This document shows, in pieces, positions 30,434 through 40,884 of a stretch of 64,000 nt of DNA (position 1 is the first letter of the stretch; each line of letters starts with the position of its first letter). A program made the translations under genes and the position numbers. A model generated the notes under the pieces. That model saw only the letters and a program-made list of their open reading frames with translations. It made no database searches and was not told where the DNA came from. Source of the DNA: Candidatus Schekmanbacteria bacterium RIFCSPLOWO2_02_FULL_38_14 (lineage in GTDB: Bacteria > Schekmanbacteria > GWA2-38-11); contig MGDH01000022.1 of assembly GCA_001790855.1 (NCBI GenBank), forward strand, positions 127,945-191,944. Direction: 5' to 3'.

Positions 30434-31216
30434 TTGGCAAATAATAATATTTTCATCCATATCCCGTACAAAAAAATTGCAGGATACAAAACGCTAATTT
30501 TTGAGAAAAAAATAAATCTTGAAATATATTTCTCAGGTGACACACTTGATGAAGTATCTCTTAATGATATAAAGGAATTAAGCAAACAACTCTCAGTTAA
30601 CGGTATCAGGACCACATTTCATTCCCCTTTTCACGATTTAAGCCCCGGAGGCTTTGATAAAAAAGTCAGGGAGGCTACTGTTTCAAGGCTGCGCCATGTT
30701 CTTGAAATTGCAGAAATCATTCATCCGGAAAATATTGTAGTCCATCCCGGATTTGACAGTTTAAGGTTTCAGGGATTTGAAAATGTTTGGTTTGAAAACA
30801 GTCTCATAACATGGAAAACGCTTCTAAAAGAGCTTCCGCACGATGATATTTTTTTTACCATAGAAAATGTTTTCGAAGAAAAACCTGACAGACTCGTTGA
30901 ACTTGTTTCTGAAATAAATTCTAAAAATTTTAAAATCTGCTTTGATATTGGCCATTTTAATGTTTTTGGGAAAATTCCATTAGAGCAGTGGATTAACAGC
31001 GTAAAATCTCATCTAAAGGAAATACATATCCACGACAACAACGGAACTAATGATGACCACATAGCCCTTGGAGAAGGAGGCATAGATTTTAAAAAACTTT
31101 TTTCTCTTACAAATCATTTGCTTAATAGTTTAATTATTACAGTTGAAGCCCACTCAAGAGAGAATGCCCTTAAAAGCCTTGCCTGGATTGAAAAGAATTC
31201 TCCGGGCGCACTTTAA
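30434..31216 (+). CDS. Sugar phosphate isomerase/epimerase-like TIM barrel
   Basis: A 260-aa protein of the AP-endonuclease-2/xylose-isomerase-like TIM-barrel family. Metal-ligand positions appear in TTFHSPFHDLSPGG, NIVVHPGF, FTIENVFEE, FDIGHFNVFG, IHIHDNNGTNDDHIALGEGGIDF and VEAHS. The start is TTG at 30434, preceded by AGGAGAG. The substrate cannot be told: family members include isomerases, epimerases and endonuclease IV, and this sequence lacks the full endonuclease IV pattern. It stands alone between the protease and the nfn genes. Confidence 0.8.
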   Translation: MANNNIFIHIPYKKIAGYKTLIFEKKINLEIYFSGDTLDEVSLNDIKELSKQLSVNGIRTTFHSPFHDLSPGGFDKKVREATVSRLRHVLEIAEIIHPENIVVHPGFDSLRFQGFENVWFENSLITWKTLLKELPHDDIFFTIENVFEEKPDRLVELVSEINSKNFKICFDIGHFNVFGKIPLEQWINSVKSHLKEIHIHDNNGTNDDHIALGEGGIDFKKLFSLTNHLLNSLIITVEAHSRENALKSLAWIEKNSPGAL

Positions 31217-36061: not shown

Positions 36062-36102
36062 GAAAGGGCTCCGCAGAATGATATTATCCGTGGAGCCCTT
36101 TC
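36062..36102 (-). terminator. Terminator after the 20-codon Cys-rich ORF
   Basis: A perfect 11-bp stem, GAAAGGGCTCC with GGAGCCCTTTC, and a loop of about 19 bases. On the minus strand it is followed by the T-rich TTGTTTTAT. It begins 13 nt past the stop of the small ORF. Confidence 0.8.
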
Positions 36103-36114
36103 GAAAATAAAAAC

Positions 36115-36177
36115 TTAGCAAGAAGCCTTGCACTTACAAGTGATACCTGCTTTTTTTGTTACCTTTCTAATCTTCAT
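36115..36177 (-). CDS. 20-residue Cys-rich peptide, candidate RiPP precursor
   Basis: A tiny ORF encoding MKIRKVTKKAGITCKCKASC. The ATG is preceded by a perfect AGGAGGTGATTCC ribosome-binding site, and the stop is followed 13 nt later by a strong terminator, so it is very likely translated. The N-terminal half is Lys/Arg-rich and leader-like. The C-terminal seven residues, CKCKASC, hold three cysteines in C-x-C-x3-C and end on the last Cys. It lies 98 nt downstream of a same-strand gene for an rSAM/SPASM enzyme with an RRE-like domain, the usual RiPP-modifying type. I know no named family with this peptide. Precursor status is inferred from context; a small metal-binding or regulatory peptide is the alternative. 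Confidence 0.7.
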   Translation of the reverse strand: MKIRKVTKKAGITCKCKASC

Positions 36178-36275
36178 GGAATCACCTCCTTTAATGATTA
36201 CACAGTTTAACAGTTTGACCAAGAATTCCGCCTTGTCATAACGAACCTTCGGGTCGGATTGCTCAGCATATTAAA

Positions 36276-37439
36276 CTATAAACTCACTCCAAAAGCAGCG
36301 CAGCGGACCAAATCAGCACCCATCAAATCACCTTCAAGAAACGCCCTGAACCTGCAACCTCCTCTGCAATCTTTCAAATATTCACAGCCACTGCACTTGA
36401 GCTCATCAAGTCTAAAATGTTTTAACCTCTTCCAACACTCTCCTATGGTATCATTATATATACTGCCCAGAGGTTGGTCAATAAAAAAACTGCACTTGCA
36501 AACTCTTCCGTCAGGGGTAATTGCGCAGAGATGAGAGCCACAGGAGAATTTCCCTGATGATTCGTATAAGCCCGACCCAAACCCATACTTCAAAAACCTG
36601 CCTCCTTTTTCAGGAGACAGGGAAAAATCAGGATTTGTCTCAAGGTAACCGGAAAAAACCGGGAAATCAACTGACCAGTCCTTTACTCCCATTTTCTTAA
36701 ACAGCTTTTCCATTTCGTCAAAATCATCAAGGTTGTACGGATGGATTATTGTCGCAACTGAAAGGTCAATTCCTTCTTTGAGAACATTTTCAGCCCCCCT
36801 CATTGCAGCTTTAAACATTCCCCTGCCACGCAGTAAATCATGGGATTTTTCTATTCCGTCTATGCTTATCTGAACCTCCTGGACCTTTAACATCTTAGCT
36901 GCCTGAGGAGTTATGAGGGTCCCGTTGGATAGAAGTATTGAACGGAATTGATATTTGCCAACACCATCATTAAATTTCCAGAATTCCTTATGAAGCAGAG
37001 GTTCTCCACCTGAAATTATTAATCTCAATCCCTGAAGTCTTTCAAACTGCTCACAAATATCAAAAATTTTCTCTAAACCCAGTTCTTTCTTTTTCTGCCT
37101 TCCAAGATAACAGTGCCTGCATCTGAGATTACATTTATCTGTTATCTGAAGCTCAAGATATCTCAGAGATGGTTTCAACGGCTTTGATAATATTATTTTT
37201 CTTTTAGAAGGCTTCTTATACAGGGTAAGGAGTTTTTCTTCAAAGCAGTATTCAAGGAGCTCCTCATCACTTTTTAAATTGCTTTTCTTGTTTGTACCGT
37301 CACAGAGTTTCAGAAACTCAAATGCCTCCTGATTAAGCTGGTAAAGCTCATCTCTGTCCCTGTGATACAGAGATGGTCTTTCAAGGTTTTTTAAAGAGCA
37401 TGGTTTTGATAAAGTCAGATATTTTTTTTCTGAAGACAT
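36276..37439 (-). CDS. Radical SAM/SPASM peptide-modifying enzyme with PqqD-like (RRE) N terminus
   Basis: A 387-aa protein. Residues about 5-75 look like a PqqD-type RiPP recognition element (LYQLNQEAFEFLKLCDGTN...LLEYCFEEKLL). The radical SAM core has C103NLRCRHC for the SAM cluster and ISGGEPLLHKEFW. The C-terminal SPASM region has cysteines at 300, 305, 314, 316, 335, 349, 352, 358, 362 and 380 (CAITPDGRVCKCSFF, CSGCEYLKDCRGGC), enough for two auxiliary [4Fe-4S] clusters. This layout is that of enzymes forming thioether or C-C links in ribosomal peptides. It is preceded by tusA, iscU and iscS, which could supply its clusters. The chemistry is inferred; a heme-pathway-like SPASM role is less likely given the RRE. 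Confidence 0.9.
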   Translation of the reverse strand: MSSEKKYLTLSKPCSLKNLERPSLYHRDRDELYQLNQEAFEFLKLCDGTNKKSNLKSDEELLEYCFEEKLLTLYKKPSKRKIILSKPLKPSLRYLELQITDKCNLRCRHCYLGRQKKKELGLEKIFDICEQFERLQGLRLIISGGEPLLHKEFWKFNDGVGKYQFRSILLSNGTLITPQAAKMLKVQEVQISIDGIEKSHDLLRGRGMFKAAMRGAENVLKEGIDLSVATIIHPYNLDDFDEMEKLFKKMGVKDWSVDFPVFSGYLETNPDFSLSPEKGGRFLKYGFGSGLYESSGKFSCGSHLCAITPDGRVCKCSFFIDQPLGSIYNDTIGECWKRLKHFRLDELKCSGCEYLKDCRGGCRFRAFLEGDLMGADLVRCAAFGVSL

Positions 37440-37565: not shown

Positions 37566-37805
37566 CTACTCGTCAGCAACAAGCTTTTTTACAAACACAT
37601 GAAACTGGTCATCGGCTTTTTCTATTTTTAGAAACTGGTTACCGGTGCTTTTACACCATGAAGGCATATCCTTTACAATTCCCTCATCATCTGCAATCAC
37701 CTCGAGAATCTGTCCTACTTTCAACTCCTTCATCTTCTTTGTTGTCAAAAGTATTGGCATTGGACAGTAGAGTCCAACAGCATCTAACTTTTCATCAGCC
37801 TCCAT
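37566..37805 (-). CDS. TusA/SirA-family sulfur carrier
   Basis: A 79-aa protein with the hallmark CPxP (DAVGLYCPMPILLTTKKMKEL), whose Cys carries persulfide. The start is the ATG at 37805 after GAGGAGAAC; an open extension to 37880 lacks conservation. TusA-type proteins receive sulfur from a cysteine desulfurase and pass it on for tRNA thiolation, molybdenum cofactor or other uses. IscS and a DsrE-like protein in the same unit fit that relay. Confidence 0.92.
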   Translation of the reverse strand: MEADEKLDAVGLYCPMPILLTTKKMKELKVGQILEVIADDEGIVKDMPSWCKSTGNQFLKIEKADDQFHVFVKKLVADE

Positions 37806-37949
37806 ATTGTTCTCCTCGTCTAACTTTAATTGAAGTCCCAAATCACAAGCATCAAATTTAAAATAAATTTCAAAATCCAAACAATCAACTTATAATTATT
37901 TTAGTTATTGAAATTTTGGCAATTGGGATTTTTTTAGAATTGAATTTTG

Positions 37950-38345
37950 TTATTTGAAATTATTCTTCTGCTTATTTCCCTTATTCTGGTATTCTTCAAT
38001 CGCTGCTTTTAGTGCATCAGCGGCAAGGTTTGAGCAGTGCATTTTTTGTGGAGGAAGTCCGTCTAAAGCTTCAGCTACAGTTGCTTTGGAAATCTTCAGG
38101 GCTTCATCAATAGTTTTTCCTATTACAAGTTCTGTAACCATGGAACTTGTTGCAATTGCGGCACCGCATCCAAAGGTCTTAAACTTTGCTTCAACTATCT
38201 TGCCATCTTTTACTTTAATAAAGAGTTTCATTATGTCCCCGCAGGATGCATTTCCTACTGTTCCTACTCCATCAGCGTCAGTAATCTCACCAACATTTCT
38301 GGGATTTTGAAAATGCTCCATAACTTTTTCAGAATATTTTTCCAT
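37950..38345 (-). CDS. iscU: Fe-S cluster scaffold IscU (NifU N-terminal type)
   Basis: A 131-aa scaffold on which [2Fe-2S] and [4Fe-4S] clusters are built. The three ligand cysteines are visible, C35 (GNASCGD, with the nearby Asp), C60 (KTFGCGAAIATSS) and C104 (KMHCSNLAADAL), as is the N-terminal EKVMEHFQNPRNVG. LPPQKMHC replaces the LPPVKxHC motif that binds HscA-type chaperones, with Q for V. It lies next to iscS in the order iscS-iscU, with a 216-nt gap that holds repeats. Confidence 0.96.
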   Translation of the reverse strand: MEKYSEKVMEHFQNPRNVGEITDADGVGTVGNASCGDIMKLFIKVKDGKIVEAKFKTFGCGAAIATSSMVTELVIGKTIDEALKISKATVAEALDGLPPQKMHCSNLAADALKAAIEEYQNKGNKQKNNFK

Positions 38346-38446
38346 AACATCTATTCCCCTTTCTAACCTTTATCCTGCCGGATTTTATACTTAAATTAAA
38401 AGTCTAAATTAAATCCCTAAAACTATGTAAATCCTAAATTCTTTTT

Positions 38447-38556
38447 TATAGCTGTAAGCTATAAGTTGTAAGTTGTAAACTTTTTTAAAATTTTAAGACT
38501 TTACTTTTAAAACTTTAATACTTTTGATTAGTTTCTTTTTTACAGCTTATAGCTGT
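38447..38556. repeat. Inverted and tandem AGCTATAAG-type repeat between iscS and iscU
   Basis: TATAGCTGTAAGCTATAAG (from about 38448) is partly repeated as GTTGTAAGTTGTAA. It has an inverted relative, TACAGCTTATAGCTG, at 38541-38555, just after the iscS stop. Similar GCTATAAGCTATAAG units precede tmRNA (about 24593-24610). Function unknown. Confidence 0.45.
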
Positions 38557-38561
38557 TTTAC

Positions 38562-39740
38562 TCATTTCATCATCTTGGCTTCTTCATAAAGAGGAGACAT
38601 CTTTCTGAGCCGCTCAACAATGGGAGGCAGTATCTGGCAGATATAATCTACATCTTCATCACTGCTTTCAGCACCAAGGCTGAAAAGAAGCGAGCCCTGG
38701 GCTATCTCAGGAGCAACTCCCATTGCAGTCAAAACATGAGAGGCTTTAAGCGCTCTTGATGTACACGCTGAACCACTGGAAGCAGCAACCCCGTCAATAT
38801 CCAGGAATAAAAGCATTGACTCGCCTTCTACATACTCCACAGAAATATTAACGTTACCCGGAAGCCTTTTTATTTGATGACCATTCAGATATGCGTGGCC
38901 AATCTTCGAAAGAATACCATTTATAAATTTATCTCTCAGCGCAGTCATTTTTTTTACTCTTCCCGGAATCTCTTCCTTTGCAAGTTCACAGGCTTTACCC
39001 ATTCCAGCAATTCCGGCAACATTCTCAGTACCGGCTCTTCTGCCATTTTCCTGAATTCCTCCATCAATAAAAGGAGTAACCCTTACTCCCTTTCTGATAT
39101 AAATTGCTCCTATCCCCTTTGGACCGTAGAACTGATGTGCCGCAAGACTAAGCAAATCAACCCCAAGCTCATTGACATTTACAGGAATTGTTCCTGCTGT
39201 CTGAACAGCATCGGTATGAAAAATAATTCCGGTCTCTTTTACAATTTTGCTTATTTCTCCAATTGGCTCAATGCTCCCAATCTCGTTTGAAGCATGAAGA
39301 ATTGAGACAAGTATTGTATCCTTTTTTATTGCTGATTTTACTGCCTGAGGGTCAACCATTCCAAATTTATCAACAGGAAGATAAGTAACTTCAAAGTCTT
39401 GTTTCTCCAGACTCTTTGCTGAATACAAAACCGCGTGATGCTCAATCTGTGAGGTTATTATATGCCTGCCCTTTTTCTGATGGGCAAGAGCAATTCCCTT
39501 TAAGGCAAAGTTGTCGCTTTCTGTCCCTGAAGATGTAAAATAGATTTCCTCAGGCAAAGCGCCTATCAACCCTGCAACCTTCGCTCTTGCTTCATCAACT
39601 GCCTGCTTTGGTTTATCGCCGAAGTTATGAAGACTTTGGGGATTACCAAAATCTTCTCTTATAAATGGTATCATTGCATCTGCAACTTCAGCCCTTACAG
39701 GCGTAGTTGAGGCATAATCCATATAAACCTTCCGTTTCAT
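38562..39740 (-). CDS. iscS: Cysteine desulfurase IscS/NifS
   Basis: A PLP enzyme (392 aa) that releases sulfur from cysteine as enzyme-bound persulfide. It has YMDYASTTPVRAEVADAM, FTSSGTESDNFALKG, the PLP Lys block SLAAHQFYGPKGIGAIYI, and the active-site Cys loop ASSGSACTSRALKASHVL. The ATG at 39740 is set by AAGGAG eight bases upstream. It is the sulfur donor for IscU and probably TusA in this operon. Confidence 0.97.
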   Translation of the reverse strand: MKRKVYMDYASTTPVRAEVADAMIPFIREDFGNPQSLHNFGDKPKQAVDEARAKVAGLIGALPEEIYFTSSGTESDNFALKGIALAHQKKGRHIITSQIEHHAVLYSAKSLEKQDFEVTYLPVDKFGMVDPQAVKSAIKKDTILVSILHASNEIGSIEPIGEISKIVKETGIIFHTDAVQTAGTIPVNVNELGVDLLSLAAHQFYGPKGIGAIYIRKGVRVTPFIDGGIQENGRRAGTENVAGIAGMGKACELAKEEIPGRVKKMTALRDKFINGILSKIGHAYLNGHQIKRLPGNVNISVEYVEGESMLLFLDIDGVAASSGSACTSRALKASHVLTAMGVAPEIAQGSLLFSLGAESSDEDVDYICQILPPIVERLRKMSPLYEEAKMMK

Positions 39741-39769
39741 CACTTCCACTCCTTAACCCCTTGAACCCT

Positions 39770-40207
39770 CTAAATATAAAGCTTTGTATCCGCATCAGAT
39801 GCAAGCTTTAATATTGATGGCAAACCTGTTATTTCATCTACTTTCTTAAGGACTTCCTCTTTTCTCAGACCCATGAATTCCACATTTGCACTGCAGGCTA
39901 AAAATTTTAATGTTCCAAGGCTCTTAACCGTATCAATCATTTCAGTTATTGAGTTAGGATTCATTGCCTTCATCTTCTGGTACACATCCTTACCATTATT
40001 TTGAAACTCCGCAGACATATCTTCTATGTCTGTCTTCCCCTCAACAAACTTCTTTAAAGCCTCAAAAAACAGAACCACATAAACTTCCTCTCCCATTGCC
40101 GCTGCTGTTACAGCAATAGTAGCAGTCTGATAAAGCCTGTCAAAGGTACTGCTGTGAGCAAAGATTACAAGCCTTCTGCGTTTTTTTTCCATCTTTTCTT
40201 CTGCCAT
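39770..40207 (-). CDS. DsrE/DsrF-like family protein
   Basis: A 145-aa protein with the DsrE-type fold signature at its N terminus: RRLVIFAHSSTFDRLYQTATIAVTAAAMGEEVYVVLFFEAL. This family includes sulfur-transfer proteins and membrane-peroxiredoxin-like forms. A single Cys near the usual active position is seen in KFLACSANVEFMGL. The start is the ATG at 40207, five bases after AGGA. Sitting between nfu and iscS, it is probably a sulfur relay partner of TusA. Confidence 0.8.
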   Translation of the reverse strand: MAEEKMEKKRRRLVIFAHSSTFDRLYQTATIAVTAAAMGEEVYVVLFFEALKKFVEGKTDIEDMSAEFQNNGKDVYQKMKAMNPNSITEMIDTVKSLGTLKFLACSANVEFMGLRKEEVLKKVDEITGLPSILKLASDADTKLYI

Positions 40208-40366
40208 CAAAATCCTATTACAATTCCAAAAATTTTATAGAAAACCCTGTACTTATGACTACAAAGATTAATAATCAAACCCTCCAGTATTTGCAGCCAC
40301 AAGCTTTAACCTGCGTATCAGGGTTCTGTTTGCAGTCCCCGTAATCGAAAACCTATAAAAGAATTT

Positions 40367-40585
40367 TTAAACTGAAACAACCTCCTCAATCTCGGGAACT
40401 TCTTCTTTTATTGCCCTTTCAACTCCCATTTTCAGGGTCATCTGCGCTCCGGGGCATCCGGCACACGCTCCTATGAGCTTAACCTTCACCTTTTTGTCCT
40501 CAATACCTATTAGCTCTATATCCCCGCCATCCATCTGTAGCTTTGGCCTTATCTTATCTATAACAGCCTGCACTTTATCTAACAT
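40367..40585 (-). CDS. NifU C-terminal-domain (Nfu-type) Fe-S carrier
   Basis: A 72-aa protein formed entirely by an Nfu domain. It has KIRPKLQMDGGDIELIGIEDKKVKVKL followed by the cluster motif CAGCPGAQMTLKMGVERAI. Two subunits share a [4Fe-4S] cluster via CxxC in known Nfu proteins. The start is the ATG at 40585 after AGAGGTGA. It lies upstream of dsrE-iscS-iscU-tusA and would deliver clusters to client enzymes, possibly the rSAM protein in the same run. Confidence 0.94.
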   Translation of the reverse strand: MLDKVQAVIDKIRPKLQMDGGDIELIGIEDKKVKVKLIGACAGCPGAQMTLKMGVERAIKEEVPEIEEVVSV

Positions 40586-40677
40586 TTTCAATCACCTCTC
40601 TTTCAGAAATTGAACCTTCCGTCTATTGATTTAATACTGTTTTAAATTATTTTTTCAATGCAAATCCTTATTTAGCA

Positions 40678-40884
40678 TCACATTTCCTGCAATATATTCT
40701 TTTCATATTCCTCTTCAAGCATTCTGACATGCTTTGCCTCTTCTTCAGCAAGGAATGAGAACATTTTCTTAGCCCCGGGGTCATCTACAACTTTAGACGC
40801 CTTCTTGTAAAACTCATAAGCGATTTTTTCTCTCTGAATTGCAATCTGGAGAGCATCCTGAACTCTTGTCGTTGAATCAATCAT
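40678..40884 (-). CDS. Short ferritin-like/rubrerythrin-type protein
   Basis: Only 68 aa: two helices with carboxylate metal ligands (QREKIAYEFYKKASKVV and FSFLAEEEAKHVRMLEEEYEK, giving ExxH-type positions). That is half of a normal four-helix ferritin-like domain, so it should dimerise to complete a di-iron site. There is no rubredoxin part. It is first in the minus-strand sulfur/Fe-S run. An oxidative-stress or iron-handling role is inferred. Confidence 0.8.
   Translation of the reverse strand: MIDSTTRVQDALQIAIQREKIAYEFYKKASKVVDDPGAKKMFSFLAEEEAKHVRMLEEEYEKNILQEM

Follow-up and report, generated by a model that had tools for sequence, protein, structure and literature searches.

A radical SAM/SPASM enzyme and a near-unchanging 20-residue cysteine peptide occur together in several bacterial phyla and probably constitute a new RiPP family

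On the minus strand of the window (the whole 64,000-nucleotide stretch of DNA analysed here), a gene for a radical SAM/SPASM peptide maturase is followed by a 20-codon gene for a cysteine-containing peptide, an arrangement that the initial annotation had already described. In several bacterial phyla, the enzyme is accompanied by this near-unchanging peptide. We propose that the two genes would form a minimal RiPP cassette, composed of a maturase and a dedicated 20-residue precursor, and that they represent a new radical SAM RiPP family whose product is probably an intracellular peptide binding copper or another thiophilic metal. For this whole chain, metal binding included, we estimate a probability of roughly 0.6; the more limited claim that the enzyme acts on this peptide as its substrate is very likely correct.

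The peptide gene (36115..36177, minus strand) encodes MKIRKVTKKAGITCKCKASC, in which residues 1–13 constitute the leader and CKCKASC the core, as judged from 126 distinct homologous peptides and from co-occurrence with the enzyme. In the window, 98 nt separate the enzyme stop codon from this ORF. The ribosome-binding site and 11-bp-stem terminator that had been noted around the ORF are indeed present. The former (AAAGGAGGTGATTCC; 36178..36192, minus strand) is a near-perfect match to the anti-SD sequence, while the latter (36062..36102, minus strand), found by folding, consists of the stem GAAAGGGCUCC/GGAGCCCUUUC and a U-rich tail, starts 12 nt past the peptide stop and has a folding energy of −28.4 kcal/mol (z −5.9). 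GGAGG, GGGGG or GGTGG precedes 134 of the 142 homologous peptide genes, a count made on a gene set for which an SD-like motif had served as a filter. An alternative TTG start would give a 35-residue reading in the window, but the homologues begin at ATG. The back-translated core pattern gave one match per genome in most carriers; the reversed pattern had no matches in the Nitrospirota surveys, and a reversed looser pattern had 2 in 386 genomes. The 20-codon ORF is a real gene, beyond chance.

The three cysteines noticed earlier in the last seven residues, the last residue among them, are kept in the homologues as invariant C14, C16 and C20. Loci were retrieved via the core pattern and are thus biased towards that core; within this set, C14, K15, C16 and the terminal C20 are invariant across the 126 distinct peptides. 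The same four positions are invariant in 130 distinct 20-residue genes, with S19 retained in 129, K5 in 128, I3 in 124 and K8 in 107. The CxCxxxC motif is found throughout the family as CKCxx[SN]C, and the leader pattern M-x-I-x-K-V/I-x-K is kept as well. Each peptide holds three (119/126) or four (7/126) cysteines, and the stop codon directly follows C20 in 169 matches against one extension, which belongs to an unrelated ORF. Pairwise core differences at codon positions 1, 2 and 3 amount to 0.11, 0.07 and 0.49, respectively. Since third positions drift while the protein is kept, selection acts on the protein, and the free variation among relatives that would have spoken against the initial annotation was not seen. 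The last seven positions of the 126 peptides are free of Phe, Trp and Tyr. Therefore, aromatic cross-links of the SuiB, PqqE or darobactin type are excluded, and the chemistry must take place at Cys, Lys or Ser, at the backbone or at the C-terminal carboxylate.

The maturase (387 residues; 36276..37439, minus strand) was delineated using Pfam, an alignment of 99 homologues and an AF2 model with a pLDDT of 95.7. These homologues share 33–49% identity with the window protein, and identity across the family is only 33–58%. The radical SAM core (residues 89–264; 36648..37175, minus strand), assigned by Pfam, alignment and profile and structure comparison, matches Pfam Radical_SAM with an E value of 3e-19 and carries the CX3CX2C motif as CNLRCRHC, whose C103, C107 and C110 are invariant in the 99 homologues. 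The SPASM domain (residues 300–380; 36300..36542, minus strand; Pfam and alignment) contains seven cysteines, C300, C316, C349, C352, C358, C362 and C380, likewise invariant and with CX2CX5CX3C spacing, and it scores 19.3 bits against Pfam SPASM, just under the cutoff of 21.5.

Residues 1–86 (37182..37439, minus strand) were assigned to an RRE (PqqD-like) domain from structural alignment to SkfB and SuiB and from the order of β-strands followed by helices in the AF2 model. SkfB is the top PDB match to the enzyme by both sequence profile and fold, with model residues 12..375 aligned to chain residues 12..392 (Z 27.2), and SuiB aligns over residues 1..439 with model residues 7..385 (Z 26.4). Both alignments are near full-length and include the N-terminal RREs; for anSME, CteB, ChlB and PqqE the structural match is confined to the radical SAM core and the C-terminal part. 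Taken by structure or profile, the neighbours of the enzyme are SkfB, SuiB, CteB and TigE. Pfam PqqD has no match in the window enzyme and reaches 12.5 bits, below cutoff, in the homologue L184. The RRE call therefore rests on the fold: of the PqqD-like N-terminus proposed earlier, the RRE-like architecture stands in the model, while a Pfam PqqD match does not.

To model docking, the enzyme and peptide of L024 were treated as one artificial chain in which stops were read as glycine, and 24 further in-frame loci were included in the alignment. The AF2 prediction shows the leader segment IRKI as a β-strand (432–435) within a block of pLDDT 75, a disordered linker (pLDDT ~37) and an unplaced core (42). 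The predicted strand fits recognition of the leader by strand addition to the RRE, although the partner strand is unreadable in this model.

Among NCBIfam models, NirJ2 and ScmE scored best, at about 112 bits against cutoffs of 400–500. The window enzyme thus falls short of the NirJ/Ahb heme enzyme equivalog cutoff (112 versus 500 bits), and also of that of mycofactocin_rSAM (97.7 versus 265 bits). Because its best scores lie so far under the cutoffs, the enzyme stands outside every named family. The peptide has no match in NCBIfam or Pfam, a literature text search for its core returned no relevant paper, and other literature searches gave no description of the family. A 20-residue gene lies under the usual annotation limits, and therefore a peptide of several phyla seems to have escaped notice. 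To our knowledge, no shorter radical SAM precursor has been described. The system has the structural make-up of an RRE-rSAM-SPASM RiPP system and falls outside the definitions of all named families tested, which agrees with the first impression that no named RiPP family fits.

The pairing of the two genes was followed through three sets of genomes. A first scan of genome contigs yielded 13 clear enzyme relatives (40–48% identity; records titled Nitrospirae, Thermodesulfovibrionales or uncultured). All 13 have the peptide, 12 of them within about 100 nt downstream of the enzyme and one (L021) 2.3 kb downstream, with two inserted genes between. In a survey of 395 genomes (Nitrospirota by record titles), with the enzyme called at E ≤ 1e-50, the enzyme was found in 117, the exact core pattern in 105 and both in 100 (Fisher p 2e-68, shared ancestry uncorrected). 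When variants are counted, 114 of the 117 enzyme genomes hold such a peptide: 14 of the 17 without the exact pattern carry a variant, either adjacent to the enzyme or at another site in the genome, and in 3 of these 14 a CKCH type, described below, is the sole peptide. Three enzyme genomes are left without a peptide, and in two of them the contig ends within 90 nt of the enzyme. In G644, no peptide was seen within ~20 kb of the enzyme, and the whole-genome pattern would miss the MKL start of its relatives. Conversely, five genomes of the phylum, all MAGs, have the peptide and no detected enzyme; in one of these (G406), enzyme fragments adjoin the two peptide copies. These copies lie in tandem (L171:3000–4850), each after a C-terminal fragment of the enzyme, and a CKCH peptide is present elsewhere in the same genome. 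With a relaxed pattern, 36 genomes of the phylum that lack the enzyme gave no match.

The third set comprised 386 genomes sampled across the whole domain; 17 of them, distributed over 12 families, carry the enzyme. The peptide was found in 16 of these 17 genomes and in none of the 369 others, where the four pattern matches all lack the leader. Its variants in this sample include CKCASSC, CKCSSNC, CKCGSSC and CKCCSSC. Co-occurrence and conservation thus support the proposal that the small ORF is the partner of the enzyme and would be the substrate of its modification.

In 74 linked loci, the median distance from enzyme stop to peptide start is 46 nt. The expectation that a cysteine-rich ORF would always lie near the enzyme was borne out for most homologues, but not for Thermodesulfovibrio-like and some other genomes, in which the peptide is encoded on a different contig or at a distance of tens to hundreds of kb and is still kept; in the Thermodesulfovibrio-like genomes this distant peptide is present once. 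Since both genes are retained even when unlinked, the pairing is supported rather than refuted. No exporter, transporter or protease is conserved beside the cassette, whose flanking genes vary by lineage, and the product is therefore apparently intracellular. Being small, apparently intracellular and usually encoded in single copy, it would be a housekeeping molecule and not an antimicrobial.

Upstream of the cassette and on the same strand, the window encodes TusA, NifU_N, cysteine desulfurase, DsrE-like, NifU and rubrerythrin-like proteins (37566–40884). The pairing of desulfurase and NifU_N beside the cassette recurs in L024 and L025, and the NifS/NifU/TusA context is seen only in relatives of the window. 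In many Nitrospirota, the region downstream of the peptide holds a gene for a TPR protein and, after it, ispE and prs (L013:6358–8085; L014–L022, L143–L163). As the TPR-ispE-prs genes also stand beside unlinked peptides, they probably reflect ancestral gene order instead of function. Both contexts were rejected as functional partners and are interpreted as inherited gene order. Another, only distantly similar radical SAM protein (L175:1079–2026; 22% identity) is situated near an unlinked CKCK peptide.

A second type of peptide, ending in CKCH[SQK]SC, was found in eight genomes. A copper-type P-type ATPase lies within 3 kb of 7 of the 8 CKCH loci, compared with 1 of 127 loci of the majority CKCK form (p 5e-10), and the single CKCK exception is a match at 29% identity only. 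Several CKCH islands also hold CsoR-like, multicopper oxidase, CusB-like, YHS and Met-rich proteins; this CsoR/CopA/MCO/CusB context is found in genomes that also carry the enzyme, though at a distance from the enzyme gene. The eight loci represent roughly three different arrangements of genes, which argues against one inherited event, albeit in a small sample. No second maturase was seen beside the CKCH peptides, so that the one enzyme present would need to work in trans. The probes used detected no copper gene in the window, and a plasmid tblastn search with the CKCH peptide gave no match. Met-rich secreted proteins without Pfam matches directly follow the CKCH peptides in L226 (938–1519) and L213 (1038–1472), and in L226 an ICMT-family methyltransferase precedes the peptide; a similar protein is present in L236.

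Combined, these observations suggest a mechanism in which the N-terminal RRE would recognise the leader, a basic stretch of the form M-x-I-[KR]-K-[VI]-x-[KR], most probably by taking it up as an extra β-strand, after which the radical SAM core, with auxiliary clusters in the SPASM domain, would modify the C-terminal C-K-C-x-x-S-C. Our first choice of chemistry would be a thioether from Cys sulfur to carbon, as in the structural neighbours SkfB and CteB. Through its sulfurs, the product most likely coordinates copper or some other thiophilic metal, and the CKCHxSC sister may be its copper-resistance version. Counting against this reading, free thiols in a CxC...C arrangement could coordinate metal even if no enzyme acts on them, and the CKCK peptides, which form the majority, lack copper neighbours apart from the single low-identity match. 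We also consider, tentatively and with some doubt, that one maturase modifies both the universal CKCK and the copper-resistance CKCH precursors in trans, which would make it the first copper RiPP system based on a radical SAM enzyme rather than an MNIO. The copper-island paralogue and the breadth of distribution go beyond the initial annotation, and the sister form provides a concrete, testable function. Because the pair is very small and simple in its chemistry, and only five core residues are near-invariant, the modified atom should be quickly findable. If confirmed, copper-binding peptides would gain a radical SAM route beside those already known, and the system could account for a conserved component of anaerobes with little-studied metal handling.

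SkfB and other sactipeptide maturases likewise combine an RRE, a radical SAM domain and a C-terminal domain with auxiliary clusters. However, SkfB has a twitch-type domain, a longer precursor and a bacteriocin operon with export and immunity, whereas the present system has a full SPASM motif, a 20-residue precursor and no export genes. In suggested function, the nearest precedents may be methanobactins and bufferins, which are made with MNIO (DUF692) enzymes (PMC12452194). They share the small cysteine peptide, the basic N-terminal part (methanobactin) and, for the CKCH form, the copper context. In contrast, the present system uses a radical SAM enzyme, and no MNIO was identified beside it among the neighbours profiled; the one TIM-barrel protein of the window that was profiled (30434–31213) is AP_endonuc_2 and not MNIO.

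Alternatively, the peptide could give rise to a small cofactor, redox or catalytic, and not to a metal ligand. Single copy, vertical inheritance and extreme conservation would then reflect recognition by partner enzymes, and the CKCH form would have been recruited near copper genes secondarily. In mycofactocin, the terminal residues are those that react, and there, as here, the C-terminal residue is constant. Mycofactocin (MftA/MftC) and PQQ (PqqA/PqqE) both derive from very short precursors with reactive C-terminal residues and depend on RRE-guided rSAM/SPASM maturases; they may be the nearest precedents in precursor size, PqqA having about 23 residues (PMC3023750). The usually single copy, conserved over phyla, also suits a cofactor. 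However, no conserved redox partner or downstream processing gene adjoins the present cassette, its C-K-C-x-x-S-C core contains three thiols but lacks aromatic residues, and the CKCH form sits in copper islands, which makes a cofactor unlikely.

A ranthipeptide resembling SCIFF, whose enzyme forms a Cys thioether and whose product is a conserved peptide with a signalling or regulatory role, as has been suggested for clostridial SCIFF, is rather improbable. The logic is arguably the closest known, with one highly conserved cysteine-rich precursor per genome and an RRE-bearing SPASM maturase, lineage-wide (PMC8326336), and CteB is among the structural neighbours. Nevertheless, the SCIFF criterion of six Cys in about 45 residues excludes these 20-residue peptides with three or four, which are under half that length and bear CKCxxSC at the very C-terminus. 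Furthermore, the precursor is often unlinked, there is no exporter, and a second, copper-linked precursor type exists.

An unmodified copper-thiolate mini-metallothionein, linked to the enzyme only indirectly through shared lineage, would suit the Cu(I) thiolate chemistry of CKC...C, the copper islands and the few genomes with the peptide and no detected enzyme, but co-occurrence over 12 families, also where the genes are unlinked, the conserved basic leader and the RRE fold render it very improbable. A Cys-codon attenuator or chance ORF, as the short, cysteine-rich ORF with its terminator-like hairpin might suggest, was rejected, since N-terminal residues are conserved while synonymous codons exchange freely, the peptide gene follows the enzyme or lies far off in unrelated contexts, and the terminator closes the unit and precedes no gene.

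Beyond the two genes of the proposed RiPP cassette, and likewise new relative to the initial annotation, a cysteine-rich protein of 78–129 residues with C-x2-C and C-G-[GA]-[YF] motifs is encoded near the enzyme in ~45 loci. It has no Pfam or NCBIfam assignment, is absent from the window and precedes the enzyme in other phyla. This small protein is likely a third component of the system. Examples beside the maturase are L185:1194–1508, L026:1118–1492 and L179:1293–1529, and in one case (L184:910–2340) it is fused to the N-terminus of the enzyme.
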